NCBI GenBank assembly: GCA_903951425.1
Contig: CAJBBX010000059.1
Span: 1 to 50,857, forward strand
Length of the DNA stretch: 50,857 nt
Source of the DNA: an uncultured Chthonomonas sp.
Lineage (GTDB): Bacteria; Armatimonadota; Chthonomonadetes; Chthonomonadales; CAJBBX01
Reading direction: 5' to 3'
The first letter of the stretch is position 1, and every line of letters begins with the position of its first letter. The notes beneath the pieces were generated by a model, which was not told the DNA's origin, searched no databases, and saw nothing but the letters and a program-made list of their open reading frames with translations. The position numbers were made by a program, and so were the translations under genes. Shown here piece by piece: positions 12,336 through 38,048 of the stretch.

Positions 12336-12364
12336 GGCCTAACAGCGCCGCGCGCCCGGGAGAT

Positions 12365-12409: not shown

Positions 12410-12429
12410 CTACAGATGGGCGCCGCCTG

Positions 12430-15834: not shown

Positions 15835-15891
15835 GCGGGTCCTCTTACCAGGTCATGAGTAGCAGGTTGACTTATGTCTTGAAAAACGCGG

Positions 15892-15940: not shown

Positions 15941-15994
15941 CCGCCAACTCGCTCTCTCACCAAGAAAGAGCCGACGGGCGTCCGGTCTGATACC

Positions 15995-16639: not shown

Positions 16640-16803
16640 CTGTCAATCACCTGTTCATGTGTGGGCGCGCTATGCACGTTGGCCGAAACCAGACGCGCCG
16701 TCGCGCCCTCCGGTCAGTCAAAGGGCATGGATGCGCCGAAACTGGCTTGGTATAACAGTACCACGCCATGCGGCGTTCCCGTGTAGGGCGCGGGACGGAG
16801 CGA

Positions 16804-21943: not shown

Positions 21944-22079
21944 CGAGTTATCCTCCATACTGAGGCGAGCGCCCCGCACGCGCAACCGCGCGAGGCCGAT
22001 TGGGTCTCGGGACCTGTAGAACCCGACGGTGATACGGCCCACCGGTAACAGCAACCGTGGGCCGGAAAGGGCTGACGAG

Positions 22080-24053
22080 ATGGCCAGAGCTCTGGTGTTG
22101 CTGGGCCTCGTGCTTACGATGTGCGGCGGCTCGCCTGCCCGATGTGAGATTACCCGCGTTGGGTTCATATGGCACTACCCATTCGTCGATGTGGGCACGC
22201 CGCGGATGCCCGAGGCCGGCGCCGGGTTGATCATCGCCCGCGCGCACTGGCCCGCCCTTGAGCCCGAGGAGGGCCGCTTCGATCCCGCGTCGCTCCGGGG
22301 CCAACTGGCTATCGCCCGCAGGCAGGGGGCGCACATCGCGCTCATCTTGGAGTGCAACCCGTACTGCACGCCGGCGTGGGTGCGGAAGGCGTGCGCGGCC
22401 GCCGGCGAGTCCGTGCAGGGCCAGGACGGCTCGTCGGACGGCGTACCGGCGTTCGACTCGCCGATCTATCAGCGCCTCGTCGAGGCGCACCTGGGTCGCC
22501 TGATGGCGTTCCTTGCCGCCGAGGATGCCGCTCGCACGGTCTCCCATACCTTTCCCGGCATCGAGTGGTGGCTCCCGCCATCGTGGCGCGGAGGCGAACG
22601 GCAGTTGGCCCGGTTCCGCCGCTGGCTCAGCGACCGGTACGGCCCGGTCGAGGGCCTCAACCGGGCCTGGGGCGCCTCGTTCCGATCTATGGACGAGGCC
22701 CGCGCTCCGGAGGTCGACTTCCCGGCGCTGTGGGACGCCCGCCGGTCAGGCTTGGCCCAGCCCGCGTGGACCGGGCGTATTGGGCTTCCGCCGGCCGCCG
22801 AGGAGCGCGCCGCGGCCGACTGGCGCCTGTTCTGGTGCGAGACCGCCGCCCGTGCCATCGACGGGCTGGCTGAGATCGTCAAGGGCCTCGACCCGGCTCG
22901 CCGCACGGTCTGCTTCATGAGCCACGCCTGGGGCTTCGCCGCCGAGTGGGACTACAGCCAATGGGCCGCCATCGCGCTGGACCTGGTCGCCCGCCTGACG
23001 CCCCATGTCGATGAGATCGGCCTGCAGCTGCCCATGGCCGGCGGCGACACTGTCCGAGCCGACGCCGTCATCGACCTGGTCCGCAAGTACAGGAAGCCCG
23101 TCTGGGCGCTGGACATGATGGACTTCCGGCTCGGCACGCTCTGCGGGCCCGAGAGCCTCAATCGAGGCTCGCTGGCCGCCGTCCAGCAGGGGGCGGTGGG
23201 GCTGGCCTACTGCTGCTGGAACGGCGCGAAGGATTTCAACATCCACCCGGATTGGCCGTTGGAGCAGACGCGCGCCATGGTGACGCAGTCGCGCCGGTGG
23301 ATCGGCCTGCTGCAGGGCATGGAGCGCGTGGCGGACGGCGCCCTCATCCTGCCGCACGTCGCCGCGTCGCCGTCCGCGCCGGGAGGTTGGTCCGACGGCC
23401 CCTCGGCCTTCATGGGCTGGTACCGGATCATACAGGCAGCGGGCCTCTCCGTCGACGTGGTGACGCCCGACGAGGTCGCCGCCGATCCGCGCCTCCTCAA
23501 GCGCTACCCGTGGATCCTGGTGCCGCCAGGAGCGAGGCTCACGCCGCCGGTGCGCGGAGCGCTCGACGCCTATGCCTCGGGCGGCGGCCGGCTGCTGCGG
23601 CCGACCTCCGTCGGGGACCCCGGCATGGCCGTGCAGGCTTCGTTGGACCGGATGCGCTCTGCGAGTGATACGCCGCCCATGATCAGCGGGCCCGTTCCCG
23701 GCCCTGCGCTTACGGCCGCACTGGCGCGCGGTGGCGCGAGGCTCCGCGGCTGGGCGGCCGCGCAGGGCCGCGTGCGCGTGCGGATCGTCGGCCGGCCAGG
23801 CGTCGTAGTGGCGCTGACGCGGCACGTTCGCGGCAAGTCGGCGGCCGTCTGCCTCGTGCCGCGGGGCGGTCCTTCCGGCCCCGTCACGCTGGAGTGGATC
23901 GGCCGCGCGCCGGGCGCCTTGCGCATGCTTGTAGACGGCAAGGCGGTCACCCCGAAGGCCGTGCGGCGCGGCGGGATTGAGCGCGTGGAGCTTCCCGCGT
24001 TCGGCGCTGGTTGCCTGCTGCTCTCCGGCTCGAGCGCCGGGGCCTTGAAGTAA
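22080..24053 (+). CDS. GH42-like glycoside hydrolase (beta-galactosidase type), secreted
   Basis: 657 residues with a signal peptide (MARALVLLGLVLTMCGG). The N-terminal TIM barrel shows features of the GH42 group: LIIARAHWPALEPEEGRFD, then GAHIALILECNPYCTPAWV, then FRRWLSDRYGPVEGLNRAWG with FPGIEWWLPPSW before it. A second domain (about 435-560, FMGWYRIIQAAGLSVDVVTPDEV then YPWILVPPGA) matches the flavodoxin-like trimerisation domain of GH42 enzymes. A small beta domain ends the protein. The fit to GH42 is partial, so substrate is open: a galactoside or another plant sugar. ATG at 22080 follows GGAAAGG. It lies immediately before rhaA, which suggests a role in the same sugar-uptake diet. Confidence 0.7.
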   Translation: MARALVLLGLVLTMCGGSPARCEITRVGFIWHYPFVDVGTPRMPEAGAGLIIARAHWPALEPEEGRFDPASLRGQLAIARRQGAHIALILECNPYCTPAWVRKACAAAGESVQGQDGSSDGVPAFDSPIYQRLVEAHLGRLMAFLAAEDAARTVSHTFPGIEWWLPPSWRGGERQLARFRRWLSDRYGPVEGLNRAWGASFRSMDEARAPEVDFPALWDARRSGLAQPAWTGRIGLPPAAEERAAADWRLFWCETAARAIDGLAEIVKGLDPARRTVCFMSHAWGFAAEWDYSQWAAIALDLVARLTPHVDEIGLQLPMAGGDTVRADAVIDLVRKYRKPVWALDMMDFRLGTLCGPESLNRGSLAAVQQGAVGLAYCCWNGAKDFNIHPDWPLEQTRAMVTQSRRWIGLLQGMERVADGALILPHVAASPSAPGGWSDGPSAFMGWYRIIQAAGLSVDVVTPDEVAADPRLLKRYPWILVPPGARLTPPVRGALDAYASGGGRLLRPTSVGDPGMAVQASLDRMRSASDTPPMISGPVPGPALTAALARGGARLRGWAAAQGRVRVRIVGRPGVVVALTRHVRGKSAAVCLVPRGGPSGPVTLEWIGRAPGALRMLVDGKAVTPKAVRRGGIERVELPAFGAGCLLLSGSSAGALK

Positions 24054-24125
24054 ACTAGAACGTCCGGCTGAACCAATCTGGGCATGGCGTTCGCGCGCCA
24101 GGTCCCGCAATCCAGGGAGACCCAC

Positions 24126-25391
24126 GTGTCAGATACCACGAAGATCGACAAGGCCTACGAGCTTGCGCGCGAGCGTTACGCCGAGATGGGCGTGGACACC
24201 GAGAAGGCCATGGCCGCCCTCGCGTCTATTCCGGTCTCGCTCCACTGCTGGCAGGGCGACGACGTCGGCGGCTTCGAGGGGGCAGGCGAGCTCACCGGCG
24301 GCATCCAGGCCACGGGCAACTATCCCGGCAAGGCCCGCACCGCCGATGAGCTCCGCGCCGACGCCGACAAGGCGCTGTCGCTCATCCCCGGCACCCATCG
24401 CTTCAACCTCCACGCCATGTACGCCGAGACGGGCGGCAAGAAGGTTGAGCGCGACGAGGTGGCCCCCGAGCACTTCGCCGGCTGGATCGACTGGGCGAAG
24501 TCCAAGGGCATGGGCCTCGACTTCAATCCCAGCTACTTCTCGCATCCGCTGGCCGACGACGGCTTCACGCTGAGCAGCCGCGACGAAGCCAAGCGCGCCT
24601 ACTGGGTGCGCCACGGCATCGCCTGCCGCAAGATCGGCGCTGCCATGGGCAAGGCTCTGGGCACGCCCACCGTCACCAACGTCTGGATCCCCGACGGCTT
24701 CAAGGACACCCCGGCGGACCGCGAGACGCCCCGCCGCCAGCTCATGAAGTCGCTCGACGAGATGTTCGCCGAGGAGATCGACGCGGCCCACAATCTCGAC
24801 GCCGTTGAGGGCAAGCTCTTCGGCATCGGCTCCGAGAGCTGTGTCATCGGCTCGCACGAGTTCTACCTGGGCTACGCCATCTCCCGGAACAAGCTCGTCT
24901 GCCTCGACGCCGGCCACTATCACCCGACGGAGTCCATCGTCGACAAGATTGGCGCCGCGCTCATGTTCGTGCCCGAGATCCTGCTCCACGTCAGCCGCGG
25001 CGTGCGTTGGGACAGCGATCATGTGGTGACCCTGACCGATGACCTCCGCGCCATCGCCGAGGAGGTCTCCCTGCCCGACCGCGTGAAGCGCGTCCACATC
25101 GGCCTCGACTTCTTCGATGCCAGCATCAACCGCGTGGCGGCCTGGACCATCGGCACCCGCTGCATGGTCAAGGCCCTGCTCGCGGCCCTGCTCCGCCCGC
25201 TGGAGACGCTGCACGAGGCCGAGGCGGCCGGCGATTTCACCACCCGCCTGGCCTTGCAGGAAGAGCTGAAGACCCTCCCCTTCGGTGCGGTCTGGGAGGC
25301 CTACTGCGTCCGCAAGGGCGTCCCCGCCGGAGCCGAGTGGCTTGACGAGGTCCGCGCGTACGAGGCTACCGTACTCAGCGCCAGGGCGTAG
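24126..25391 (+). CDS. rhaA: L-rhamnose isomerase
   Basis: 421 residues, nearly the same as Escherichia coli RhaA. It converts L-rhamnose to L-rhamnulose in the cytoplasm with a divalent metal. The barrel residues are clear: [12 protein letters not shown] near the N-terminus, [37 protein letters not shown] at about 259-269 (metal ligands) and [15 protein letters not shown] chose the GTG at 24126, which follows AGGGAGA, over the ATG at 24084, whose extra residues are not part of the family. No rhamnulokinase or aldolase gene is adjacent, so the later steps must be elsewhere. A hairpin follows the stop codon. Confidence 0.95.
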
Positions 25392-25472: not shown

Positions 25473-26387
25473 TTGACCGAACTGGCCCCGCCCGACCGCA
25501 GGATCCACTTCCTGCACATACCGAAGACCGCGGGCACCAGCGTCGCATCGCTGGTCCGCAACGCCTATCCTGCTGATGAAAGCATCCCGGCCTACTTCTG
25601 GCACGAGTTGCCGGGCATGGATCGGACGCGACTGAACGGCTACAGGTGCTATGCCGGGCACTTCGGCACGATCCTCCAGGACATGCTGACAGGCCCGATC
25701 CCAACGGTGACGATGCTTCGCGATCCGCTTGAGCACTATGTATCGAGAGCCGCCCACAACCTCAGGTGGCTCGATCAGCAGGATGTTACCGTGGACCTGG
25801 TCCGGCAGCAGGTTCGGCTTGCCACGGGTGATAGCGACCTGTCGGATGCACAAGCCGACGCGATGCTGTCGGCCGCCCGCAGCGGCAACGTGGGACCGCT
25901 CCTGGGACACCCGCTGCTGGTCCGGTCCGGCGTCGATCTGCAGACCCGCACCCTGGGCGTGCACTTCGATCTGGACTGGCTGCGCGCCTGTGAGTCGTAC
26001 AAGGTCTATGAGGCACTCCTGACGGAGCAGGCGCCCGGAGCCGCCTCCGACGCGGTGTACCGAGCCGCCGTGGCGTCGCTGGAGGGCATGGAGGTGGTCG
26101 GTCTGGTGGAGAGAATGACTGATTCTATCACGTTGATCTGTCGTTACCTGGGTATTCCTGCGCCACCGGAGGTCCCTTTGAAGAACGCCAACCCGGCGCG
26201 GCCCCAGGGCCGGACGAGCTACCGCGAGTCCGGTATGCTGACGGCCGCCCACATGTCCATGGTAGCGAAGGTCACCGAGCGTGACCGCGAGCTCTACGAA
26301 CGCGGCCGCGCGATCCACGCGAAGCAGATGAAGCGGGCTCAGCGCCGGTGGTGGCGGATGCTCCCATGGCCGGTCAGGTCGGCATAG
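25473..26387 (+). CDS. Sulfotransferase (PAPS-dependent, Sulfotransfer_2-like), copy 1
   Basis: 304 residues. It is predicted to move a sulfuryl group from 3'-phosphoadenylyl sulfate (PAPS) to a hydroxyl or amine. The 5'-phosphosulfate loop is HIPKTAGTS at about residues 14-22, and the 3'-phosphate site is RDPLEHYVSRAAHN, both intact. The rest matches the other three sulfotransferases in this window (QTRTLGVHFD, EVVGLVERM), so they are paralogues. No signal peptide or membrane segment is seen, so it acts in the cytoplasm. I chose the TTG at 25473, nine bases after GGGAGG. It ends five bases before the sulfotransferase-methyltransferase gene. The acceptor is unknown; the nearby UbiA, cyclase and exporter genes suggest a prenyl or glycolipid. 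Confidence 0.85.
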   Translation: MTELAPPDRRIHFLHIPKTAGTSVASLVRNAYPADESIPAYFWHELPGMDRTRLNGYRCYAGHFGTILQDMLTGPIPTVTMLRDPLEHYVSRAAHNLRWLDQQDVTVDLVRQQVRLATGDSDLSDAQADAMLSAARSGNVGPLLGHPLLVRSGVDLQTRTLGVHFDLDWLRACESYKVYEALLTEQAPGAASDAVYRAAVASLEGMEVVGLVERMTDSITLICRYLGIPAPPEVPLKNANPARPQGRTSYRESGMLTAAHMSMVAKVTERDRELYERGRAIHAKQMKRAQRRWWRMLPWPVRSA

Positions 26388-26391
26388 GGGG

Positions 26392-28096
26392 ATGCCGACG
26401 CGCGAGATGGCCCCGCCAGACAGGCGGATCTACTTCCTGCACATCCCCAAGACAGCCGGCACATCGCTGGGCGGGCTCGTTCGCCGGGCGTTCCCGAAGG
26501 AGCACCGTGTACCGGGCCATCAGTGGTATGAACTGGTGGGCCTCTCCCGGGAGCAGCTTGACGGGTTCCGGTGCTATTCGGGCCACTTCGGCACGCTGTT
26601 GCCCGATATGCTGACCCGGAGCATCCCCACCGTCACCATGCTCCGCGATCCCCTGGAGCATGTGGTCTCGCTCGTGGGCCATGCGCTTCGGCGCCAGGAG
26701 TGTGAACTTGACGCGGCACACGCTGCGGGCACGACGGCGCCCGATGAGGAGACGGCACAGGCGGTGGCCCCGGGCCCGGCAGGGAGACCTCACGGAGCTG
26801 TTCCGCCGTCCCGGCCTGCTGGCGACCATAGCGAACCAGCAGACGCGAACCCTCGGCGTGCATCTGTCGGTACCGGACGTGCGCCGACGCACCGACAAGG
26901 CCAACTACGAGGTCTTGTTGAGGGATGCCGCACCGGGCCTTGTCACCGATGCCGTGTACGGAGCGGCCGTGGCGACACTCAATGCAATGGAGTTCGTGGG
27001 TCTGGTCGAGCAGATGGACCAGTCCGTCGCCCAGGTCTGCCGGGTCCTGGGCGTGGCCCCACCGCCTCGGGCTCCGCGCCGGAACGTGAACGCCATCTGG
27101 GACAAGAAGGGCGGAAGCTACCGGTCATCGGGGTTGCTAACAGATGCGCAGATTGCGACGATCGACACGATCACCGCACGGGATCGCGAGCTGTACGAGC
27201 ATGGCCGCACGCTCTCTAATCGGACCGTGCGTAGGGCCACGCGCCGATGGTGGCGCTTCCCGTGGCTGCGCGTCGCACGTGCTGCGGATGAACCGCCGCC
27301 CGCACCGCCGCCTGTAGCGCCCACACCAATCGGACCGCCGCCGACGACGGTGGAGGGCGTCGCACACCACTTCGACCAGCACTGCGCCCTGTACGAGCGG
27401 GTCTACGGCCCAATGCTTCAGGTGCTGCAGCCATCCAATGTGGATGAGTATATGTTCCACGCAATGGACGCGATGGAACTCCAGGATGGCATGTTGGTGT
27501 TGGACGCAGGCTGCGGCATCTGCGTCCCGACGGTATGGCTGGCGGAGCACCGTGACGTGCACATTACCGGCATGACCCTTGGTGCCTTCATGGCGCGGCG
27601 CGCCGTGGAGCGTGTGGCGGAGGCAGGGCTGGCCGATCGGATAAGCGTCGTGGAGGGCGACTTCCACCGCCTTCCGGAGTTCAATGCCCCTGGGTTCTTA
27701 GACCGCGTTATCTTTCTGGAGTCGTTTGGCTATGCGCAGTCGGTCGAGGCCGTCCTCGCCGGCGTTCGGCATGTCCTGAAGCCTGGAGGCTGCCTCTACC
27801 TGAAGGACCAGCGGCTCACCGCGGACACGGGTGATGCCGAGGCCTGGGCGCACTCGGAAGTGCTGCGTCTGAAGGTTCTACAGGAGTATGGGTTCAACGC
27901 CTGGCCGCAGGAGGAGACGGTCGGTGCGATCGAGCGGGCCGGCTTTCGTGTGATGTACGCACGGCCGCTGGACCTCGAGTTCCGATGGGACATAGTGCGG
28001 ATGTTTGACCTCTGTGTGGGCAACACATGGTCCGACCACGTCAAGGGCTTCCAGTGGGCGCAGCCCTTCGAGATTCTCGCACAGCGGGATGGGTAG
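26392..28096 (+). pseudogene. Sulfotransferase fused to SMT-like methyltransferase, interrupted by a one-base insertion
   Basis: The first frame opens as a sulfotransferase (HIPKTAGTSLGGLVRR, RDPLEHVVSLVGHALR). The second frame continues it (QGDLTELFRRPGLLATIANQ, QTRTLGVHLSV) and adds a Pro-rich linker and a SAM methyltransferase (LVLDAGCGICVPTVWLAEH, GLADRISVVEGDFHRLPEF, LKPGGCLYLKDQRL). The frames meet at 26768-26771, where CCCC should be CCC. Removing one C gives one 567-residue protein. The methyltransferase's motifs (GMTLGAF, FLESFGYAQSV) recall sterol and prenyl C-methyltransferases. Either the methyltransferase makes no product here or the extra base is an assembly error. The start is the ATG at 26392 or 26407. 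Fusing sulfation and methylation in one chain suggests both act on one substrate. Confidence 0.82.
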
Positions 28097-28100
28097 CCGT

Positions 28101-28126
28101 GCCCGATGGGTCCCGTCGCCTCGGGC
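28101..28126. terminator. Small hairpin between convergent genes
   Basis: GCCCGA (28101-28106) and TCGGGC (28121-28126) form a perfect 6-base inverted repeat, with a second nested pairing of GATGGG to CCCGTC. It sits in the 35-base gap between the ends of the methyltransferase fusion and the first minus-strand sulfotransferase. There is no T run. Confidence 0.35.
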
Positions 28127-28131
28127 GCCCC

Positions 28132-28980
28132 CTACAGGCCCAGGAGCCGCTTCAGCCTCCTGCGCCAGGTTGCTGTGCGAACCTGCGTCGGAGGTAGCGC
28201 GACGTCGGCCATCTTCTGTGCGAGCAGCGTCTCCGCGTATCCGACTAGGCCGTGGTCGTGGGTGTTCAGATTATCCAGCTCGGCGGCGATCCTCGGCCCG
28301 ATGCGCATGCGGTGCGTCATCCCGTCTGCCATGGGGCCTGCGTTGATGTGCGGCGTCCGCTCCGGCGGCGGCACGCCGAGCAGGGCGCAGATGGCCGCCA
28401 TCGTCTCATCCATCCTGTGGACCACGCCCACTACCGCCATCGACTCGAGGTGCGCGCGAGCGCGTACCAGAAGCTCGTCGTCGCCCAGTTCGCGCACCTG
28501 TGCGTGCAGGCGCCGGACCACCGATCTGTCGGCTCCGTCCGTAACGTAGGAGGCGTCGGCCCTGAGCCCGAGCCACCGGGTCTGCGTGTTCGAGATGGAG
28601 GCTCGAACTGCCGGCACCTGCAGAAGCTCCTCCAGCGGGAGGTCCACATGCTTGGCGACCGGATGCTCCAGGCAGTTGCCGGTCTGTGCGCGTATCTCCT
28701 GCCGCACATACTCGATGTGCGATATGGCTCGCTCGATCGGGTCGCGCAGGACGGTAATCGTGGTGAGCTGCCGGTCGGTCAGAACGTAGGGCAGGGGTCC
28801 GAGATGACCGATGATGCACCGGTAGCGGCTCATCGCGTCGCGCGGGAGTTGCGACAGCTGCTGCCAGTTGTACGCCGGAAGGACCTGCTCCGAGCCGTAC
28901 ACCCGGTGAAGCACTTCGGCGACGGATGTGCCTGCCGTCTTCGGGATGTGCAAGAAGTAGAGATACGGTAGTTCAGCCAC
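28132..28980 (-). CDS. Sulfotransferase (PAPS-dependent), copy 2
   Basis: 282 residues, last gene of the minus-strand run. It keeps both PAPS sites, HIPKTAGTSVAEVLHR at the N-terminus and RDPIERAISHIEYV, and is most like the copy at 30196-31089: shared VRQEIRAQTG/VRQQIRAKTG and GVVHRMDETMAAIC/GTVARMDETMSVIC. It lacks a signal peptide or membrane helix and ends in a basic tail (TWRRRLKRLLGL), which could bind a membrane surface. The GTG at 28980 follows AAAGGAG, eight bases away. It lies 36 bases after the cyclase-like gene, so it is cotranslated with it. Acceptor unknown. Confidence 0.85.
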   Translation of the reverse strand: MAELPYLYFLHIPKTAGTSVAEVLHRVYGSEQVLPAYNWQQLSQLPRDAMSRYRCIIGHLGPLPYVLTDRQLTTITVLRDPIERAISHIEYVRQEIRAQTGNCLEHPVAKHVDLPLEELLQVPAVRASISNTQTRWLGLRADASYVTDGADRSVVRRLHAQVRELGDDELLVRARAHLESMAVVGVVHRMDETMAAICALLGVPPPERTPHINAGPMADGMTHRMRIGPRIAAELDNLNTHDHGLVGYAETLLAQKMADVALPPTQVRTATWRRRLKRLLGL

Positions 28981-29016
28981 TGCGGGCGCTCCTTTAGTTG
29001 CTCGACCGCGATACAG

Positions 29017-30036
29017 CTACGGCACCCGGAACCTGCTCCCGACAAGGGCCAAAGCCTCCAGAGCCACACTCGTTGTAACGGCCGGAGAGCCCCAGTAGTA
29101 CATCGGTTGGATCGGGATACCTGGTACTGCGTCCGATAGCCGGGCGCCATACGCCGGCGCGGCGGGCCACGAGCCATCGGCGAGTTGGCTCTCGACCAGA
29201 CGGTCTGCCAGCAGCCGGACGAGACGATGGCCGCTTGCTCCCACGCGAACGAGCGTGCATAGGGCCTGCGCGGCGCTCAGGTCGGAGCATTGTGCCACGC
29301 TACCACCCAGTGACTCTACCACGCGATCTTCCAGGGCACGGTAAACGTGGCGCAGTCTCGGGGCGCTCTCATATGCAGCGCGAGAGACGAGATAGTTCAC
29401 ATGCATGGCGCCGGGATACCACATCTGGTGGTCCTGATCCGTCCGGCTTGTCACGATGTCAATGAGCCAGCCGATCACCGGAATCGTGCAGTCCGCCTCC
29501 CCGAGATACCAGACCACATTGGCGTTCGTCCCGACGCAGACGGAGTTGATGTACCCCATCTCCTCGATCCACGTCAGGAAGCGGCCCTGATCGTCGCGCC
29601 ACTTCAACAGGTGGCCTGCATTCCGGCGCAGCAGCAGCCGCAAACTGCGATGACGCAGCGCCATGGAGCCCAGCGAGGTTGTGTCGGCATCGAACGGCCA
29701 TGGGTAGGGCGCAATCTCGTGCGCGCTCCTGGTCGAGAAGCGCCAGAGCCCCGCCAGAGTCATCTCCTGAAGCGCCGCATGGGATGCCCTGCCTCGAGCA
29801 TCACGAAGCCCGTGGTGTCGTACATGCCGAAGAGCACAGAGCATGTAAAGGGTCGCGAAGCACTCGCCCGCCGGCACCCATTTCGTGAACCGGGGATCGA
29901 CGCTTCTGAGGGAGGGGAAGGCGCCGTCGGCCTCTTGGGCGGCCGCGAGGTATCGGACGCCTCGGTCGATGGCGCCGACGTAGCCGTCTGCGGCATCTCG
30001 ACCGCGTCGGCTTGGCTCGCTCCGTGGATTACCCAT
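29017..30036 (-). CDS. Short class II terpene-cyclase-like (alpha-alpha barrel) protein, altered acid motif
   Basis: 339 residues, a single alpha-alpha barrel in place of the usual two-domain class II cyclase. QW-like repeats are visible near both ends (AAAQEADGAF, ESQLADGSWPAAP), with YYWGSPAVTTSVALEAL at the C-terminus. The position of the proton-donating DxDD motif holds DADTTS at residues 116-121. The first and middle Asp remain, but the second of the adjacent pair is Thr. The neighbouring homologue at 31173-32186 keeps DIDDTA at exactly the same position. The change may abolish cyclisation or alter the reaction. The ATG at 30036 is used. Other alpha-alpha toroid functions, such as prenyl binding, remain possible. 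Confidence 0.65.
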   Translation of the reverse strand: MGNPRSEPSRRGRDAADGYVGAIDRGVRYLAAAQEADGAFPSLRSVDPRFTKWVPAGECFATLYMLCALRHVRHHGLRDARGRASHAALQEMTLAGLWRFSTRSAHEIAPYPWPFDADTTSLGSMALRHRSLRLLLRRNAGHLLKWRDDQGRFLTWIEEMGYINSVCVGTNANVVWYLGEADCTIPVIGWLIDIVTSRTDQDHQMWYPGAMHVNYLVSRAAYESAPRLRHVYRALEDRVVESLGGSVAQCSDLSAAQALCTLVRVGASGHRLVRLLADRLVESQLADGSWPAAPAYGARLSDAVPGIPIQPMYYWGSPAVTTSVALEALALVGSRFRVP

Positions 30037-30195
30037 AGGCGCCCCCTGGCGTTCGTCAGACCGTTCTTCACCTGATGCGATCGTCTCCGCCCTCGATCAT
30101 CCTGGAGGGAACGGAGAGTGTCTCACTCCATGTTGGCACAGAGGGCGAGGACTGTGGGACGGTACGCACAGACGTGTGCGGGGCCCGATGGGCTG

Positions 30196-31089
30196 CTAGG
30201 GACGGAGCCGTTGCAGCAAGACCTGCCACCAGAGGCCGAGGCGCCAGCTCCAGCCAGGCGCTGCATACTGCTGCATACGGGGCCTGGGTGGGCGCGGCTC
30301 ACCCGAGGCGATCTGGGCCAGGTGTTGAGTCAGCAGTCCGTCCGCGTAGGCGACCAGTTCGTGGTCGCGGACGTTCATCTTGTCCAGCTCGGCCGCAAGC
30401 TCCGGCCCGATGCGCTCGCGGTGCGTTCTGCCGTCCCGGTTTGGGCCTACCCGGGCGCGCGGGACCGTTTCCGGCGTTGGGACGCCAAGGACGTGGCAGA
30501 TGACCGACATGGTCTCGTCCATCCGTGCCACCGTGCCCACTGCCGCCATCGTGTCCAGATGCTGCTTGGCGCGGACCAGCAGAGCGTCGTCGCCGAGTCT
30601 CCGCGCCTGACCCCTCACGCACAGCATGGAGTAGGCGCCGACACCGAATCTGACCAGGGCGGGCTCAGGCCGGATCCCCAGCACTCGCGTTTGGTGCTCG
30701 GTAAGCGCTGTGCGGACCTCTGGGACCGTAAGGAGCTCCTCCAGCGGCTTCTCAATATGGGAGGCCACGGGATGCCTGACGAAATCACCGGTCTTGGCGC
30801 GAATTTGCTGCCTGACGTACTCGACCTCCGAGACGACCCGCTCCACAGGGTCTCGCAGGATTGTGATGACGGTCAGGGGCCGGAGCGTCAGCGCATAGGG
30901 GAGTGGGCCATGATGCCCCAGGATGCAGAGGTGCTTGTCCACGGAGTCTGCCGGCAGCCGCCCCAGGTCCAGTCGGTTATGAGCCGGAAGGACCTGCCCC
31001 CTGGGGTAGAAGCTCCGCAGCACACGGGCCACCGAGGTGCCGGCGGTCTTTGGTATATGCAGGAAATAGAGATGCGGTAGATCAGGCAC
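30196..31089 (-). CDS. Sulfotransferase (PAPS-dependent), copy 3
   Basis: 297 residues. HIPKTAGTSVARVLRS holds the 5'-phosphosulfate loop and RDPVERVVSEVEYV the 3'-phosphate site. The middle and C-terminal parts follow the copy at 28132-28980 closely, and both are preceded by a cyclase-like gene. It has a longer, Pro/Arg-rich and aromatic C-terminus (SWRLGLWWQVLLQRL), which might be a membrane anchor. The GTG at 31089 follows GGAGGG. Gaps are 83 bases to the upstream cyclase-like gene and 159 bases to the downstream one. Predicted cytoplasmic, acceptor unknown. Confidence 0.85.
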   Translation of the reverse strand: MPDLPHLYFLHIPKTAGTSVARVLRSFYPRGQVLPAHNRLDLGRLPADSVDKHLCILGHHGPLPYALTLRPLTVITILRDPVERVVSEVEYVRQQIRAKTGDFVRHPVASHIEKPLEELLTVPEVRTALTEHQTRVLGIRPEPALVRFGVGAYSMLCVRGQARRLGDDALLVRAKQHLDTMAAVGTVARMDETMSVICHVLGVPTPETVPRARVGPNRDGRTHRERIGPELAAELDKMNVRDHELVAYADGLLTQHLAQIASGEPRPPRPRMQQYAAPGWSWRLGLWWQVLLQRLRP

Positions 31090-31172
31090 TGCTCAGCGCC
31101 CTCCAGATGGACGGACCTCAGCGACGCCACCACGTCGGCACGCTTCCGACTAAGGTTCGCGAGTACCGTTCG

Positions 31173-32186
31173 TTAGTGGCGCATCGTGGGCATCATCGTC
31201 AGCGCCTCAACCGCAACCGCCGTGGTGATGGCCGCCGAGCCCCAGTATAGCAGCCGACCCGTCGGCATGCCCGGGATATGGCTGGGTAGGCTGTGCCCCC
31301 CCCACGCTGGTGCGATTGGCCACGATCCGTCGGCGCGTTGTCGCTGAAGGAGGCTCTCACCCAGTTGGGTGACCAGTCGGTTCGCACCTGCGCCGACGCG
31401 AACCAGCGTACAGACGGCCTGCGCGGCGTTGAGTGCGGAGAGCCGATCGATACCGACGCCGACCTCGTTCATCACGCGCTCCTCCAACACACGGTTGATT
31501 GCACGGAGTGTAGGCGCGCTCTCATGGGCTGCGCGCGACACGGCATGGTTGAAAAGCATGGGGCCCGGGTAGTACCGCTGGTGCGCCTGGTCAGTTCGAT
31601 CGGTCGCCAGTTCCATCAGCCAGCGAATGGCAGGCTTGGTGGCGGCGGTCTCTCCGATGTACCAGACAGCGTTCGCGTTGACGACGGCGCAGACCGGGTT
31701 CAGATAGCCCTCTTCCATCCACGTTCGGAAGCGGCCCTGCTCATCGCGCCACTTGAGCATAGTAGGGATGTTGAGTCTTAGCAGCAGCGACAGCCGGTAA
31801 CGGCGAAAGGCCATGGACGCCAGCGCTGTATCGTCGATATCCAACGGCGCCGAGAGCGTATCGGCTGCTTCCACTGAGGTCGGCCGGAACCGCCACAGGC
31901 CCGGCCGGACCATCTCGCGGAGTATCAAATCGGCCGCCTTCCGACGAACGCCCGGAAGGAGCGGGTGCCGGACCCCTCGGAGCGCGCAGATCACATACAT
32001 CGTGCCGAAGTGCTCCTCTCCGGGAGACCGCTTCGCAAAACCCGGCAAGGGGCCCCGGACGGTCTCAAAGGCGCCATCTGCTGTCTGAGTAGCGGCTAGG
32101 AACCGTACCGCCCGATCAATCGCCATGCTGCGCCTATCAGCCCAGGCTCGGCCGGAGCCGCTGCTTTGGTCAGGGATGTGAGACAT
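31173..32186 (-). CDS. Short class II terpene-cyclase-like protein with intact DIDDTA motif
   Basis: 337 residues, clearly paralogous to the protein at 29017-30036 along its whole length. It keeps a full DxDDTA-type motif, DIDDTALAS at residues 116-124, the acid that starts class II terpene cyclisation in squalene-hopene cyclase and plant copalyl diphosphate synthase. QW-like repeats are present (AATQTADGAF, QRQRADGSWPIAP), and GYLNPVCAVVNANAVWYIGE lies mid-protein. Known class II enzymes have two barrels and 500 or more residues, so half-length is odd: it may form a dimer, work on a short chain, or be a binding protein. AAGGAGG precedes the ATG at 32186. UbiA lies 125 bases upstream in the same direction. 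Confidence 0.68.
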   Translation of the reverse strand: MSHIPDQSSGSGRAWADRRSMAIDRAVRFLAATQTADGAFETVRGPLPGFAKRSPGEEHFGTMYVICALRGVRHPLLPGVRRKAADLILREMVRPGLWRFRPTSVEAADTLSAPLDIDDTALASMAFRRYRLSLLLRLNIPTMLKWRDEQGRFRTWMEEGYLNPVCAVVNANAVWYIGETAATKPAIRWLMELATDRTDQAHQRYYPGPMLFNHAVSRAAHESAPTLRAINRVLEERVMNEVGVGIDRLSALNAAQAVCTLVRVGAGANRLVTQLGESLLQRQRADGSWPIAPAWGGHSLPSHIPGMPTGRLLYWGSAAITTAVAVEALTMMPTMRH

Positions 32187-32311
32187 CCTGCCTCCTTCTC
32201 ACCGTGCAGTTTCCGATCGGCGCCGACGCCCGGTTGGCGTGCGCACGGGTATCCGGCTGCGTCTGCCGTGTGATCGTCGTGCTACCCGACCGGCAGAGCG
32301 CCTCGTGCCGT

Positions 32312-33421
32312 TCAAGGCTGGGCCGACGGCGGCAGGCGCTGCTGTCCGCAGGACATACGGCTATCCGCAGACGCGAAGGGCGCACCCATGAACAGCGGGT
32401 ATAGCCGCCACCGTGCGAAATGCCACAGGTGGCCACCGGCCCGTATGGCGTGGCCTGGGAAGAGCGCCAGGTGCGCGGCAGGCAGCCACCACGCGTCGGT
32501 GCGCCCCATGGCGAAGGCGCAGAGCGCTCCCACCGGAAGCCAGAGGTCGTAGATGTCCAGCAGCGCCATGGGGTCGGTCCCGCGCTCTGCCACGACGCCG
32601 ACACGGACGCCCAACTGGCGGGTGCGGATGTGATCCAGCAGCAGGCCCGCAGCGACGAACAGGAGGAGCGCGGCATGGCCCAGTACGGCGAGCAGCGCCA
32701 GCCCGGCCGCGACCTCCGCCGGGAAGAGGGCCCGCTCCACGGCGCGGCGCACCAGCCACGGGTCCTGGCCGGCCACGAAGGTGGCCACGGCGCCGCGCCG
32801 GTCGGCGTCGCGGTCGAGGATCTGGTGTACCAGGATACCGCGAAGGCCCGAGAGCAGGCTCACCGCGCATAGGCAGGCCGCGAGCGTCATCGAGGCGCGG
32901 ACGCCCGTCGCGTAGGCCACCCATGCAAGCGCATACAGCGTGAGGAGCAGGTGCGCGCCCAGGGCATCGGCGACCACGCCGGCGAGGCGGCGGCACTTCA
33001 GCCGGAACGGCCGCACCGAGTAGAGCGTGAAGACGAGCCAGATCGCGGCGTAGAGCGCCAACGGCAGGGACGCTCCGCGCATGGACCAGGCGCACGCCGC
33101 GCCGGCCGCAAGGGGGAGGCCCGCCGCCGCCGCTCGGAACCAGAGCGGCTTCCCGGCCATGCGGTTGGCCTTGCCGGCCCGGGCATCCTGCGCGATGTCG
33201 GTCCAGTCGTTCAGGAGGTTGGCATAGGCCGCCGCAGGCGTGAGCGACAGCACCAGCCATCCCGCGGCTTGCCAGACGGCATCCGTGGAGAGCCGCGCCT
33301 GCAGGGCCACCGCGTAGACGGCTAGCAGCACCGGAGGGCCCTTGAACGCCCACCACTGCTCGGCACGGACCAGGGCGGTCAGTCGAGCCGGGCCGGGCCG
33401 TTCGACGTGCGCGACCATCAC
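32312..33421 (-). CDS. UbiA-family prenyltransferase
   Basis: 369 residues with about eight or nine membrane helices. It attaches a polyprenyl diphosphate chain to an acceptor in the membrane. The two metal-binding Asp motifs are present: NDWTDIAQD at residues 71-79 and DRDAD at 203-207. YSVRPFRLK at 134-142 is the conserved loop between them. The acceptor could be an aromatic ring or a sugar phosphate; the sequence does not decide. The start is GTG at 33421 (four-base overlap with the ABC gene) or ATG at 33418. It lies between the exporter genes and the cyclase-like and sulfotransferase genes, which argues for prenyl-chain chemistry in this locus. Confidence 0.85.
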   Translation of the reverse strand: MMVAHVERPGPARLTALVRAEQWWAFKGPPVLLAVYAVALQARLSTDAVWQAAGWLVLSLTPAAAYANLLNDWTDIAQDARAGKANRMAGKPLWFRAAAAGLPLAAGAACAWSMRGASLPLALYAAIWLVFTLYSVRPFRLKCRRLAGVVADALGAHLLLTLYALAWVAYATGVRASMTLAACLCAVSLLSGLRGILVHQILDRDADRRGAVATFVAGQDPWLVRRAVERALFPAEVAAGLALLAVLGHAALLLFVAAGLLLDHIRTRQLGVRVGVVAERGTDPMALLDIYDLWLPVGALCAFAMGRTDAWWLPAAHLALFPGHAIRAGGHLWHFARWRLYPLFMGAPFASADSRMSCGQQRLPPSAQP

Positions 33422-34686
33422 GGCTCCTCGAAATCGAAGGCCAGGTAGAGCAGCCCCTGTCGGTGGCGAAGGATGTTCATCGTGGCGTCTTCGGTTGCGC
33501 CGACTGTAAAGCGATCGGGCTTGGTCTGGTAGCCGCGAGCGGCCAATGGAGCGCCGGATCGAGGGTCTATGATGGCGGTGTGCAGCTCGTAGGCGCCCGG
33601 CATGAGCGGAAGGCGCTCAATGCGGCACGTCAGCTCGTGTTCGCCGGCGGCCGGCTCATAGGGCATCTCGGGCGGGCTGACGGCCGATGCCAACGGGAAG
33701 TGCCCAAACCCGCCGATCTCCATGCCCCACTGCACCTTGCCGACGGCCGAGCCCGCCGAGTAGCGTAACCGGACGACGGCGGGTTCGCCGGGCAGCAGAT
33801 CGGCGCCACCCTCGCCGGAGATATCCACAGAGAGGATTGCGAGATCGCTGAGTGGCGCTCGATCGGCGGCCTGCCCGCCCTTCCGCCCTGCCCGTGGCCT
33901 GGCCGGTTCGGCGCCCTGGTCCGCGTCCCGGCTCTCCATCATCTCCTCGTATTGCTTGACGACGCGATCGGGAGGACCGATGTCGATCACCCGGCCTCCA
34001 TCCATCAGCACGCATTTGCGACACAGGGTCTGGACCAAGAACAGGTCATGGCTCGCCAGCAGGATGGAACCGCCACCGTCAACGTAGTCGCGCAGGAAGC
34101 GCTGGAACTTGCCCCGGAACCGCAGGTCGCCGCCGCCGATGGCTTCGTCCACCAGAAAGAGATCGGGCTTCAGGCGCGTGTAGATGGAGAAGGCCAGCCG
34201 CAGCCTCATGCCCTGGCTGTAGGTGCCGGTGGGCGCGTCGATGAACTCGCCCAGGCCGGAGTAGGCGATCAGCTCCGGGATGGCCTCGCGGATCTCGTGC
34301 GGCGGCACGCCGTGCATGGAGAGCTTGCTGATGATGTTCTCACGCCCCGTCTGCGACCCGCTGAGCCCGCCATGGGCGTCCATGGCGATGACGCGGTCCG
34401 TGAAGAACTCCAGCCGCCCGAGCGAGGGCCGCAGCACCCGTGCCGCGATGTTGATGAGCGTGCTCTTGCCCGCGCCGTTGTGCCCGATGACGCCCAGCAC
34501 CTCGCCGGCCTCCACCTCCAGGCTGACATCATGCAGCGACCAGAACTCGCCCGGCCGCAGGCTCCGCGCCGGCTCTCTTCCCATGGCCTCCGCAGCGATG
34601 TCCTGCAGGCCGTAGCGCAGGTTCAGCCGCGGTTTGCGACAGAAGCGCTTGGAGACGCCGTGCAGGGCCAGGAGCGGCTTGCCCAT
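33418..34686 (-). CDS. ABC transporter ATP-binding protein, Wzt type with C-terminal cargo domain
   Basis: 422 residues. The ATPase part (1-260) has Walker A GHNGAGKST at 68-76, YSQGMRLRLAF at 156-166 in place of LSGGQ (usual in Wzt/TagH exporters), and Walker B DLFLVDE at 175-181. After a basic, disordered linker (about 262-285), residues 290-420 form a Wzt_C-like beta-sandwich (GEPAVVRLRYSAG, GMEIGGF, PGAYELHTAIID). In O-antigen systems this domain binds a terminal modification of the polymer before export. The partner permease starts three bases away. With UbiA, cyclase-like and sulfotransferase genes downstream, the cargo is probably a modified lipid-linked glycan. Confidence 0.87.
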   Translation of the reverse strand: MGKPLLALHGVSKRFCRKPRLNLRYGLQDIAAEAMGREPARSLRPGEFWSLHDVSLEVEAGEVLGVIGHNGAGKSTLINIAARVLRPSLGRLEFFTDRVIAMDAHGGLSGSQTGRENIISKLSMHGVPPHEIREAIPELIAYSGLGEFIDAPTGTYSQGMRLRLAFSIYTRLKPDLFLVDEAIGGGDLRFRGKFQRFLRDYVDGGGSILLASHDLFLVQTLCRKCVLMDGGRVIDIGPPDRVVKQYEEMMESRDADQGAEPARPRAGRKGGQAADRAPLSDLAILSVDISGEGGADLLPGEPAVVRLRYSAGSAVGKVQWGMEIGGFGHFPLASAVSPPEMPYEPAAGEHELTCRIERLPLMPGAYELHTAIIDPRSGAPLAARGYQTKPDRFTVGATEDATMNILRHRQGLLYLAFDFEEP

Positions 34687-34688
34687 GG

Positions 34689-35552
34689 CTAGTCGTTGGC
34701 TCGCTCAAGGGCGTAGGGAAGGCAGAGGCGGGTCAGGAACCACGCCGCGACCAGCAGCAGGGCCAGCGCCGCGGCGGCGCCCAGCAGCAGGCTGAGGCTG
34801 CCCTCGCCGGTGCAGGCGTAGGCGCGGGCATTGTCCAGCAGCCATGCCAGCGGGTTCAGGGCAAAGACGCGGGCCAGGCCCGACCCGGTCCGCGGGCGGA
34901 TGAAGATGGGTGTCGTGGCAAAGAGGACCCAGGGCAGGAATATCATCACATGGTCCATGTCGCGGCTCATGGCGTTCCATGGGGCCATGGCCATACCGAG
35001 CGCGACACCCAGGACGGCCACCTGCCCGATCGCCACCAGGCCCAGCGGGAGCGTTAGGGCGGGTGGCGCGTTCAGCAGCAGGCAGACGAAGGCCACTGCC
35101 ACCAGCTTCATGGTCAGGCTGACCAGCATCTCGCCGGCGCCCGCAAGGAGCATTCCCTCCAGTGGAACGCGTTGCCGGGAGAGGAGTTGCCGGTTGCCGC
35201 TGATGGCCATCCGCTCGGCGTTCAGCGCCTCCATGAAGGACTGCATCATCACGATGCCATAGAGGCCGTAGACCTGCGGGGGGATGGGGCCTGTATCCAT
35301 CAGGGGAAACCGCGCCTTGCGGCCGATGGTCATCACCACTGAGACGAACGCCGCGGGCACGATGGCCCACAGGAAGCCAAGGGAGGACTGACGGTAGCGC
35401 TGGCGCAGCCTCTGGGCCAGGAGGCTCCGGGCTATGGGCAGCGAGGCCCGCAGGTCCGTGATCGCTTCGCGTATGAACCGGCGCGGGTGGCGCACACGGC
35501 TCTCCGCGCTGATGACGAGGATCGGTTCGGGCCGGGGCTCAGGTTGCGCCAT
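34689..35552 (-). CDS. ABC-2 permease, Wzm type
   Basis: 287 residues with six predicted helices. It forms the channel that flips a lipid-linked polysaccharide or glycolipid across the inner membrane. The N-terminal amphipathic region (ASLPIARSLLAQRLRQRYRQSSLGFLWAIVPA) is typical of the Wzm/TagG family. Later segments (LGVALGMAMAPWNAMSRDMDHVMIFLPW and FALNPLAWLLDNARAYACTG) match the family's central and C-terminal parts. The ATG at 35552 lies inside the upstream glycosyltransferase, which it overlaps by 14 bases. Its partner ATPase follows after two bases. Substrate unknown. Confidence 0.87.
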   Translation of the reverse strand: MAQPEPRPEPILVISAESRVRHPRRFIREAITDLRASLPIARSLLAQRLRQRYRQSSLGFLWAIVPAAFVSVVMTIGRKARFPLMDTGPIPPQVYGLYGIVMMQSFMEALNAERMAISGNRQLLSRQRVPLEGMLLAGAGEMLVSLTMKLVAVAFVCLLLNAPPALTLPLGLVAIGQVAVLGVALGMAMAPWNAMSRDMDHVMIFLPWVLFATTPIFIRPRTGSGLARVFALNPLAWLLDNARAYACTGEGSLSLLLGAAAALALLLVAAWFLTRLCLPYALERAND

Positions 35553-36741
35553 GGGTCTTGGCGACTGCGAGGATCTTGTCCGCGAACTCGCGGCATGGGT
35601 CGGCGGGCCAAATCCGGCGGATGCGGGCGCCCGCAGCCAAGCCGATCTCGCGCCACTCGGTGCGTCGCTCCCACGCCCGGTCCAGGGCCTCATCCATCGT
35701 GTTGAAGCAGACGCCGCGGGCCAGGAAACCGGTGACGTTGTCGTCGATCACCTCGCCGTTGCCGCCGGCGTTGCTGACGATGCCCAGGCGCCCGCACATC
35801 ATGGCCTCCACCAGCACCAGGGGCAGGCCCTCGGCCCGCGAGCATAGCACCAGTGCGTGGTGCTTACGCCAGACGTCGGTGATGTTGTCCGAGAACGATG
35901 CGAAGCGGACCATGGGCAGGTCCAGCAGCGAGGCCATTCCCTCATAGGCCTTGCGGTGGCATCCGTTGCCATAGAAGCTGACGGTGACGCTGCGCGAGAG
36001 CCACTTGGGTTGCGCCAGAACCCGCAGCAGGGTGTCTTGCCCCTTGTCCCGGGCGAAGAGGCGCCCCACGCAGGCGATGCGGAAGTGGCCGTCCGGTGCA
36101 TCCGGCCATGGGAGCGGCTCGGGCGCATCGACCATGAAGGGATTGTGCACCACCTCGGCGTTGGGTAGCCGGGCGCCGATCTGGCACTCCGTAAGGTCGC
36201 GGTTATGGTGCGAGACGAAGTAGCACCGCTCCGCCTGCTGGTAGCCGCGCCGCATGGCCGCCAGGGCCTGGTCCGGCGGCCAGTGCGGGTCCGACGCCTT
36301 CTGGCAGAGCAACGCATAGGGCGTCCCGGACTCGATGCACGGGTCGGTGTAGCGCATGCCGTCGAAGTTGTCGCCCTGGGAGATCACGACCAGGCTGGGC
36401 TTCTGCGCCCGCAGGAGTTGGACCAGCATGTTGTGGCGCCAGTCGTTGGGGCGGAACCGGCCCGGCATGAGCCTGGCGCCGGCACGTACGGGGAGCGGCG
36501 GAAGGAGTGAGTAGTAGTCTCGTGCGGCGATGCCCTGGCTACGGAGGCGGGCAATCTGCGGGTGGGACTGCACGACGAGTGTCTTGATGATCGACGCGGC
36601 GTGGCCCTGGACAGCTAAGATGCGTGCGGCGCCGGCGTAGAGTTCCTCGCTGCCTCCCCAGGGCTCGGGGCAGGAGCTCATGAATAGGAACCTGAACGGA
36701 TGACCGGGCTGCGCTACCAGACCTGTGGCGCGATGTGTCAC
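35539..36741 (-). CDS. GT4-family glycosyltransferase
   Basis: 400 residues, GT-B fold. The N-terminal domain has MSSCPEPWGGSEELYAGAARIL, a donor-loop start common in GT4. The C-terminal domain has RIACVGRLFARDKGQDTLLRVL and SRAEGLPLVLVEAMMCG, which contains the E-x7-E pair of retaining GT4 enzymes, then FLARGVCFNTMDEALDRAW. It should add a sugar to the exported molecule before transport. The GTG at 36741 follows AGGGAG. An internal start at the Met of MSSCPEPW is possible but would cut the first strand. It is the first gene of the minus-strand run and diverges from rhaM, so its promoter lies in 36742-36902. Confidence 0.87.
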   Translation of the reverse strand: MTHRATGLVAQPGHPFRFLFMSSCPEPWGGSEELYAGAARILAVQGHAASIIKTLVVQSHPQIARLRSQGIAARDYYSLLPPLPVRAGARLMPGRFRPNDWRHNMLVQLLRAQKPSLVVISQGDNFDGMRYTDPCIESGTPYALLCQKASDPHWPPDQALAAMRRGYQQAERCYFVSHHNRDLTECQIGARLPNAEVVHNPFMVDAPEPLPWPDAPDGHFRIACVGRLFARDKGQDTLLRVLAQPKWLSRSVTVSFYGNGCHRKAYEGMASLLDLPMVRFASFSDNITDVWRKHHALVLCSRAEGLPLVLVEAMMCGRLGIVSNAGGNGEVIDDNVTGFLARGVCFNTMDEALDRAWERRTEWREIGLAAGARIRRIWPADPCREFADKILAVAKTHGAT

Positions 36742-36902
36742 CTATACTCCCTCGTGGCGAGCGCCGGAGCGCAGATATCGTGGGTCACGCCATAAGGATA
36801 CCGCCTACGCCGACAGCCGGGCCGAACCGGCAGGAATCGGCGCCCACGCCGGGTAATACTCCTCGGCGCCGAGACGCGTTCGCGGGCGCTCTGGAGGATG
36901 AC

Positions 36903-37226
36903 ATGCAGCGTGTTGGACTGATGCTACAGGTGAAGCCGGAGAAGCTGGACGAGTATCTCAAAATCCACGAGAACGTCTGGCCCGACCTGCTCGCCGAACT
37001 CAAGAAGGCCGGGTTCCGCAACTACAGCCTTTGGCTGGGGCCGGGCGGCGTCGAGTTCGGCTACCTGGAGTGCGACGACTGGCAGGCGAGTTGCGACTAC
37101 TTGGCAACTTCCGAGGTCCACACCCGGTGGCAGACGTTCATGCAGGACTACCTGGACAGCCCCACGGCGTCCGACCAGGGCGGCCAGCCCGTGCTCATCC
37201 TGGCCCAGTCATTCCTGATGGAGTAG
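36903..37226 (+). CDS. rhaM: L-rhamnose mutarotase
   Basis: 107 residues, the family's normal size. It interconverts alpha- and beta-L-rhamnose so that rhamnose isomerase receives its preferred anomer. The ferredoxin-like fold carries the active-site His in IHENVWPDLL at about residue 20, Tyr in NYSLWLG and the motif MQDYLDSPT. A Shine-Dalgarno GGAGG lies six bases before the ATG at 36903, which rules out the longer upstream frame. It lies 39 bases ahead of a TIM-barrel isomerase gene. With the GH106 enzyme and rhaA elsewhere in the window, it supports use of rhamnose from glycans. Confidence 0.92.
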   Translation: MQRVGLMLQVKPEKLDEYLKIHENVWPDLLAELKKAGFRNYSLWLGPGGVEFGYLECDDWQASCDYLATSEVHTRWQTFMQDYLDSPTASDQGGQPVLILAQSFLME

Positions 37227-37265
37227 TTCCGTAACCAACAGACCCTAGTCACGAGGAGGCACCAC

Positions 37266-38048
37266 GTGTCCAAGATACCGATCGCCGTACAGCTCTATTC
37301 CGTCCGCGACGAGTGCGCCAGGGACCTGCCCGGCACCATCGCCAAGGTCGCCGCCATGGGTTACGACGGCGTTGACTTCGCAGGCTACTACAACTACAGC
37401 GCGGCCGAGCTGCGCAAGATGTGTGACGACGCCGGCCTGAAGGTCGCCGGGACGCACATCGGCATGGACACCTTGCTGGGCGACAACCTTGCCGCCACCA
37501 TCGAGTTCAACGCCGAGCTGGGCAACCGTTTCCTGATCGTGCCCTGGATCAACGAACCCGAGCGCGACAGCGCCATCTCCTGCTGGAAGACCGCCGAGGT
37601 CTTCAACGGCATCGCCGCCAGGCTCGCGCCCCACGGCATGATGACCGGCTACCACAACCACCACGCCGAGTTCACCGATCTGGGCGACGGTCTCACCGCG
37701 TGGGATGCCCTGTTCGACAAGACCGGCGCGGGCGTGGTCATGCAGCTCGACACCGGCAACGGCCTGGCAGGCGGCGCCAAGCTCGAGGAGATCCTCAAGC
37801 GGCACCCCGGCAAGGCGACCACGGTCCACCTGAAGCCCTACTCCACCGTGCAGGCCGCGGCGGCGGGCTTCGAGGCCGGATACAAGCCGCTGATCGGCGC
37901 CGACGATGTGCCGTGGCGCGCCGTCTTTGACCTCTGCGAGGCCACGGGCGGCACCGAGTGGTACATCGTGGAGTACGAGAGCGACGCGTACCCGGCGCTG
38001 GAATCGGTGGATCGCTGCATCAAGATCCTGCGCGACTGGGGCAAGTAG
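37266..38048 (+). CDS. TIM-barrel sugar isomerase/epimerase (AP-endonuclease-2 family)
   Basis: 260 residues of xylose-isomerase-like TIM barrel. It begins IAVQLYSVRDECARDLPGTIAKVAAMGYDGVDF, the family's first barrel units. Metal-site residues are visible: YHNHHAEF, MQLDTGNG and WYIVEYE. The family isomerises or epimerises free or phosphorylated sugars, or acts in inositol breakdown. The substrate is not determined here. The GTG at 37266 follows GGAGG. It follows rhaM and precedes an exported Gfo/Idh/MocA oxidoreductase, a pairing usual in sugar catabolism. Confidence 0.82.
   Translation: MSKIPIAVQLYSVRDECARDLPGTIAKVAAMGYDGVDFAGYYNYSAAELRKMCDDAGLKVAGTHIGMDTLLGDNLAATIEFNAELGNRFLIVPWINEPERDSAISCWKTAEVFNGIAARLAPHGMMTGYHNHHAEFTDLGDGLTAWDALFDKTGAGVVMQLDTGNGLAGGAKLEEILKRHPGKATTVHLKPYSTVQAAAAGFEAGYKPLIGADDVPWRAVFDLCEATGGTEWYIVEYESDAYPALESVDRCIKILRDWGK

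Follow-up and report, generated by a model that had tools for sequence, protein, structure and literature searches.

What product would call for a prenyltransferase, two small cyclase-like proteins, four sulfotransferases, a glycosyltransferase and a Wzm/Wzt-type exporter, all encoded side by side? The question is raised by a locus at positions 25,473–36,741 of contig CAJBBX010000059.1 (assembly GCA_903951425.1) from an uncultured Chthonomonas sp. of the Armatimonadota, a phylum that has been little studied. The window, i.e. the whole stretch of DNA analysed, is this contig of 50,857 nucleotides (contig C59; the genome of 6.08 Mb is split over 188 contigs). The answer that we favour, with a probability of about 0.55, is that the locus serves the biosynthesis and export of a sulfated, glycosylated prenyl compound.

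An earlier interpretation, made without database searches (the sequence-only reading), had named the gene families and their order; open frames and family scans, on which the gene calls rest, recovered all of them in that order. The minus strand encodes GT4, Wzm, Wzt, UbiA, CYC1, STd, CYC2 and STc with intergenic distances of -23 to +159 nucleotides; on the plus strand, STa and then STb-MT converge on this run, and the stop codons of the two units are 35 nucleotides apart. Both units together are bounded by the genes for L-rhamnose isomerase RhaI (24084–25391) and L-rhamnose mutarotase RhaM. G-numbers below denote genomes, and L-numbers denote loci that carry homologues. The predicted features are:

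35539–36741, minus strand: GT4 glycosyltransferase at the head of the minus-strand run (Pfam Glyco_trans_1_4, E=5e-20)
34689–35561, minus strand: Wzm-type ABC-2 permease (NCBIfam galactan_ABC_perm, E=1e-5)
33418–34686, minus strand: Wzt-type ABC ATPase with C-terminal extension (TagH/Wzt models, E=1e-42 to 2e-37)
32312–33421, minus strand: UbiA-superfamily prenyltransferase (UbiA, E=2e-5; Asp motifs)
31173–32186, minus strand: CYC1, putative single-domain class II terpene cyclase, motif DIDDTA (profile, structure model, catalytic residues)
30196–31089, minus strand: STd, HS6ST/HS2ST-like sulfotransferase (Sulfotransfer_2 over cut-off; PKTAGT and RDPxxxxxS motifs)
29017–30036, minus strand: CYC2, paralogue of CYC1 (51%), motif DADTTS (sequence comparison, catalytic residues)
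28132–28980, minus strand: STc, sulfotransferase, 56% to STd (Sulfotransfer_2 over cut-off; HS6ST/HS2ST fold, Z 16)
25473–26387, plus strand: STa, sulfotransferase (PAPS motifs conserved; 76% in G001)
26392–28096, plus strand: STb-MT, sulfotransferase-methyltransferase fusion, broken at about 26768 (Methyltransf_25, E=6e-13; DNA comparison with G001)

Predicted class II cyclases CYC1 and CYC2

CYC1 (337 amino acids) and CYC2 (339 amino acids) consist of one barrel each, and neither has the beta and gamma domains (about 630 amino acids) of a squalene-hopene cyclase. In matches of a profile of 20 CYC sequences, the E values were 4e-34 for the TCbeta domain of drimenol synthase, 3e-21 for AstC, 2e-20 for squalene-hopene cyclase and 3e-8 for MstE. 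The AlphaFold model (337 amino acids; mean predicted local distance difference test score, pLDDT, 92; predicted template modelling score, pTM, 0.92) aligned over residues 5–333 with the TCbeta domain of the drimenol synthase AsDMS at Z 35.5, and with MstE at Z 29.5. By family assignment, CYC1 and CYC2 are thus very probably class II terpene cyclases; profile, structure model and catalytic residues give a sharper meaning to the term 'cyclase-like' of the sequence-only reading, and the assignment strengthens a terpenoid reading of the locus.

At Z about 20, the model can also be aligned with sugar epimerases and other toroids, and the alpha/alpha-barrel proteins CYC1 and CYC2 might on that account be sugar epimerases, lyases or glycosidases of the same toroid fold; this is very improbable, however, in view of the higher Z scores and the profile matches to terpene cyclases, the near-invariant DxD pair, and the acid-activating Asn and Tyr kept in most members. 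A C5-epimerase or glycosidase assignment was set aside on Z and profile scores, and a protein-prenyltransferase beta subunit, considered from size alone, was rejected since the matches among solved structures are terpene cyclases.

The DxD(D/T) motif reads DIDDT in CYC1 and DADTT in CYC2, and the DxD pair is conserved in all 19 sequences that span this position. In the profile alignment, D118, N172 and Y206 of CYC1 are the counterparts of the catalytic Asp, Asn and Tyr, and N172 and Y206 are shared by CYC2 and kept in most homologues; in AstC, the Asn and Tyr position and activate the catalytic acid (PMC13244436). The best structural and sequence match to CYC, the HAD-TCbeta drimenol/drimenyl synthases AsDMS and AstC, likewise have a single alpha6-alpha6 barrel, a DxD(T/D) motif, and an Asp placed by Asn and Tyr (PMC12365925, PMC13244436); unlike these synthases, CYC1 and CYC2 lack a HAD phosphatase domain, and the identity is 17–19%. 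An origin of drimenol synthases by fusion from such a stand-alone TCbeta-type enzyme was proposed earlier (PMC12365925), and CYC1 and CYC2 add stand-alone, unusually small members near the TCbeta domain of this family. Among the diphosphate-binding residues of AsDMS that were compared by profile alignment (R378, R380, R425, R513), R378 and R380 have no clear counterpart in CYC1 and CYC2, and the R425 position is occupied by Arg in CYC1, Met in CYC2 and Thr in G002.

The merosterol cyclase MstE, which shares 15% identity with CYC, was reportedly described by Moosmann in 2020. In passages of PMC12365925 and PMC9814783 it is given as a monodomain class II cyclase from cyanobacterial merosterol biosynthesis, and like CYC it is a stand-alone cyclase of about 340–365 amino acids encoded beside a UbiA-type prenyltransferase (PMC5618424).

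Homologues of CYC also occur in other settings. They neighbour a polyprenyl synthetase in L017 and L062 and a class I terpene synthase (Terpene_syn_C_2) in L021. In L061:9409–10761 and L066:9457–10764 (minus strand), a nitrile-hydratase-like leader segment precedes the CYC homologue in the same open reading frame, ABC exporter genes adjoin, and L061 also has a YcaO gene; from these sequence features, both are predicted to be terpene cyclases within clusters of the ribosomally synthesized and post-translationally modified peptide (RiPP) type. Another cluster type is represented by L035 (5974–13495; genome G112 of the same phylum), where CYC lies beside acyltransferase, cytochrome-P450 (P450), signal-peptidase-like and nucleotidyltransferase-like genes. 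L013 (7282–12065) contains three related genes, 44–51% identical, for putative radical SAM/SPASM enzymes, which adjoin genes for UbiA, CYC, an asparagine-synthetase-like protein and a double glycosyltransferase.

Predicted prenyl transfer, sulfation, glycosylation and export

The UbiA protein of the window contains the motifs NDxxDxxxD (residues 71–79) and DxxxD (203–207), of which N71, D72, D75, D79, D203 and D207 are invariant in seven homologues. It scores 24.6 bits against a Pfam cut-off of 34.2; the homologues of G292, G025, G973 and G1018 exceed this cut-off. The earlier count of one UbiA and four sulfotransferases is borne out by motifs and relatives; besides UbiA, two of these sulfotransferases score below their Pfam cut-offs. 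The UbiA of G002 continues in frame into a sulfotransferase-like NKWYS domain (L008:12839–14845), a fusion that links prenylation to sulfation.

For binding of the sulfate donor 3'-phosphoadenosine-5'-phosphosulfate (PAPS), the 5'-phosphosulfate-binding (5'-PSB) and 3'-phosphate-binding (3'-PB) motifs of the sulfotransferases, PKTAGT and RDP..E...S, are invariant in eight sequences, and the genome encodes an adenosine-5'-phosphosulfate (APS) kinase for PAPS supply. The fold resembles that of heparan sulfate 6-O- and 2-O-sulfotransferases (HS6ST/HS2ST; Sulfotransfer_2) at Z 16, compared with about 8.5 for small-molecule SULTs, and besides the PAPS motifs a C-terminal motif is shared with HS6ST; the identity is about 19%. 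By analogy, this resemblance suggests sugar hydroxyls as acceptors. A Sulfotransfer_3 search of the genome gave no match, which places the sulfotransferases of the window in another branch. G022 encodes a sulfotransferase joined to a P450-like domain, and L014 has two sulfotransferase and P450-like fusions (11623–13263 and 15597–17279), the first copy being without the usual heme-ligand Cys region (LMVHQHASRGISGQ).

The fusion of sulfotransferase and methyltransferase named by the sequence-only reading is intact over 566 amino acids in G001 of the same genus; in the window its frame is split, with about 125 N-terminal codons in frame 1 and the remainder in frame 2, by one extra C at about 26768 (CCCC versus CCC in G001, DNA comparison), which may be a real mutation or an assembly error. 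The 'SMT-like' label can be kept only as a generic S-adenosylmethionine-dependent methyltransferase with CMAS-like similarity.

For the Wzt 'cargo domain' of the sequence-only reading, the C-terminal extension gives a weak match to Wzt_C (12.5 bits; cut-off 30.4); a Chloroflexota homologue scores 23.5 bits. The true start of Wzm is probably at 35561, where its homologues begin, and not at the annotated start of the open reading frame (35693); homologues share 42% identity in G087 and 30% in L018. Family scans found GT4 as the sole glycosyltransferase between RhaI and RhaM; genes for an initiating sugar transferase or for the assembly of a polymer are absent from the locus. Homologues of GT4 lie beside CYC or UbiA in G022 (45%), G973 (47%) and G087 (50%).

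Conservation, variation and distribution of the gene set

The locus occupies the same place, in the same order, in all three genomes of the genus. In G001 and G002, GT4 is the best-conserved gene of the locus (90–92% identity to the window), followed by Wzm, Wzt and UbiA (70–87%), and the flanking genes are 95–99% identical; dN/dS ratios (non-synonymous to synonymous substitution rates) of 0.1–0.3 for all locus genes indicate purifying selection. The CYC and sulfotransferase genes vary most. The window has two CYC-sulfotransferase pairs and G002 has one, the CYC of which is 51% identical to both window copies with dS above 1.4; in G001, a frameshifted remnant (L010:13067–13406) begins as CYC1 and ends as CYC2, and the cyclase and sulfotransferase sequence between these ends is deleted. 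Since the variation is concentrated in these genes, the core is stable within the genus, and the cyclase-sulfotransferase pair is swapped, doubled or lost. An empty site, as expected if an island had been inserted between RhaI and RhaM, was not shown; RhaI and RhaM lie apart in G003, G004, G005 and G008.

Among 101 genomes of relatives (thresholds E<1e-10 for CYC and E<1e-50 for GT4), CYC was found in five (G000, G001, G002, G022, G025), the UbiA subfamily in exactly these five and G087, and GT4 relatives in these six and G068; no P value is given for this co-distribution because the independent events behind it are few (two or three lineages). In the single-contig genome G087, of another family, the run GT4-GT2-Wzm-Wzt-UbiA-sulfotransferase lies on a single strand, and CYC is missing. 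The sequence-only reading had treated the gene set as a unit, to be abandoned if cyclase, UbiA and ABC genes were found apart with no shared distribution; the conserved place and order in the genus, the co-distribution, and the core order in G087 all agree with a unit.

In a wider survey (1761 genome searches in four phyla, partial sampling), related gene orders were found in Chloroflexota (L018: GT2-Wzm-Wzt-sulfotransferase-P450-UbiA-CYC-P450), Acidobacteriota (G973: GT4-UbiA-CYC; G1018: Wzt-CYC-UbiA-Wzm with P450 and methyltransferase) and Actinomycetota (G1360: Wzm-Wzt-P450-CYC-methyltransferase-GT2). G022 has GT4, CYC and the sulfotransferase/P450-like fusions; its UbiA gene is on the same contig, about 16 kb away. 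UbiA adjoins CYC in the window and four other lineages; the two are at most 8 kb apart in five of 18 CYC lineages, compared with about 1% expected per locus from 3–5 UbiA genes per genome (binomial P about 1e-6 to 5e-6). In the CYC tree, linkage to exporter, glycosyltransferase or sulfotransferase genes is clustered but not confined to one clade, and we therefore do not claim that it arose once. Elsewhere (RiPP-type clusters, isoprenoid synthase pairs), CYC is found with neither UbiA nor exporter, so the full set is better described as a modular cassette than as one fixed pathway.

These arrangements bear on two other explanations. In the first, UbiA would make a polyprenyl-sugar donor (cf. 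decaprenyl-phosphoribose synthase), a sulfated glycan of the cell surface would be produced and exported by GT4, Wzm/Wzt and the HS6ST-like sulfotransferases, and the cyclases would be unrelated or secondary. The glycan branch of the sulfotransferases, the Wzt/TagH-like ATPase, and the CYC-free core of G087 with its GT2 besides GT4 are in line with this. We nevertheless regard it as unlikely: with a single glycosyltransferase and no initiating sugar transferase, a polymer is improbable from the locus genes alone, and the proximity of CYC and UbiA in five lineages of three phyla, together with the UbiA-sulfotransferase fusion, ties terpenoid and sulfation steps together.

The second, which we rate slightly lower still, is a sugar-free, secreted sulfated (mero)terpenoid, for which Wzm/Wzt would act as a drug-type exporter and GT4 would have another function. 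UbiA with a monodomain class II cyclase is merosterol logic (PMC5618424; for MstE, passages of PMC12365925), and P450s and methyltransferases are added in L018, G1018 and G1360. Against it stand the conservation of GT4 in the genus, its position next to CYC or UbiA in G022, G973 and G087, the GT2 or other glycosyltransferases of L018 and G1360, and the likeness of the sulfotransferases to glycan enzymes.

A proposed pathway and its relation to known systems

For a sulfated, glycosylated prenyl compound, the explanation that we favour, UbiA would attach or rearrange, at the membrane, a polyprenyl chain from cellular isoprenoid diphosphates, GT4 would add a sugar, the HS6ST-like sulfotransferases would transfer sulfate from PAPS, probably onto sugar hydroxyls, and Wzm/Wzt would move the product over the inner membrane. 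Where present, CYC1 and CYC2 would each protonate the terminal prenyl double bond via the DxD(D/T) aspartate and fold the chain into a drimane- or merosterol-like ring system, and the paired sulfotransferase and the methyltransferase would tailor the cyclised product. The CYC-sulfotransferase pairs are accessory, optional tailoring modules on a core pathway, because G087 has no CYC and G001 only a deletion remnant. The sequence-only reading had proposed an exported sulfated terpenoid or prenyl glycolipid; its terpenoid part has gained from the cyclase assignment. Gene order, conservation, protein families, the cyclase fold with its catalytic residues, and PAPS supply are what the analysis shows, whereas for this locus we infer substrates (including that of UbiA), acceptor, step order, glycolipid nature and exporter cargo.

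Several points weigh against this explanation. CYC is missing (G087) or broken (G001) in two core-bearing genomes, and no aromatic-acceptor or prenyl-diphosphate synthase gene was found in the locus. The matches of UbiA to solved relatives are weak (chlorophyll synthase and DGGGP synthase, E 0.002–0.008), and the acceptor is not readable from them. Wzm/Wzt could export some other glycan, and the product is a prediction from the genes.

No described pathway that combines UbiA, a class II cyclase, a sulfotransferase, GT4 and Wzm/Wzt export was found in the open-access literature. Compared with the merosterol (mst) pathway, the window adds GT4, sulfotransferases and Wzm/Wzt, and its locus contains no P450s or aromatic-acid genes; P450s, a merosterol-type feature, are found in L018, G1018 and G1360. 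Sulfated merotriterpenoids of sponges, such as adociasulfates, share the predicted logic of UbiA-like prenylation, proton-initiated cyclisation and PAPS sulfation, but carry an aromatic sulfate and no sugar (PMC5618424); genes for sulfated meroterpenoids of sponges had not been found as of a 2017 review (PMC5618424). The O-antigen (Wzm/Wzt) and teichoic acid (TagGH) loci have permease and ATPase families in common with the window; unlike these, the locus of the window has no initiating transferase or polymer glycosyltransferases, and UbiA, cyclases and sulfotransferases instead.

With this locus, a genetic route by which bacteria may make sulfated, probably glycosylated (mero)terpenoids, compounds that are known from sponges, can be put to the test. 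It also gives a view of such chemistry varying among close relatives: the core stays fixed, and the genes for cyclases and sulfotransferases are swapped, doubled, fused or lost. It is conceivable, at somewhat less than an even chance, that exported sulfated prenyl-compound glycosides form a new class of bacterial lipids or natural products, with a multi-phylum GT4-Wzm-Wzt-UbiA-sulfotransferase core and stand-alone TCbeta relatives as optional ring-forming modules.

The flanks of the locus carry genes for rhamnose/glycan catabolism, i.e. GH106 alpha-L-rhamnosidase, GH42, RhaA, RhaM and a xylose-isomerase-like protein (window positions 2529–6431, 22029–24053, 24084–25391 and 36735–38048). Elsewhere in the window, a TPR-CHAT protein of 932 amino acids is encoded (12430–15228, minus strand).

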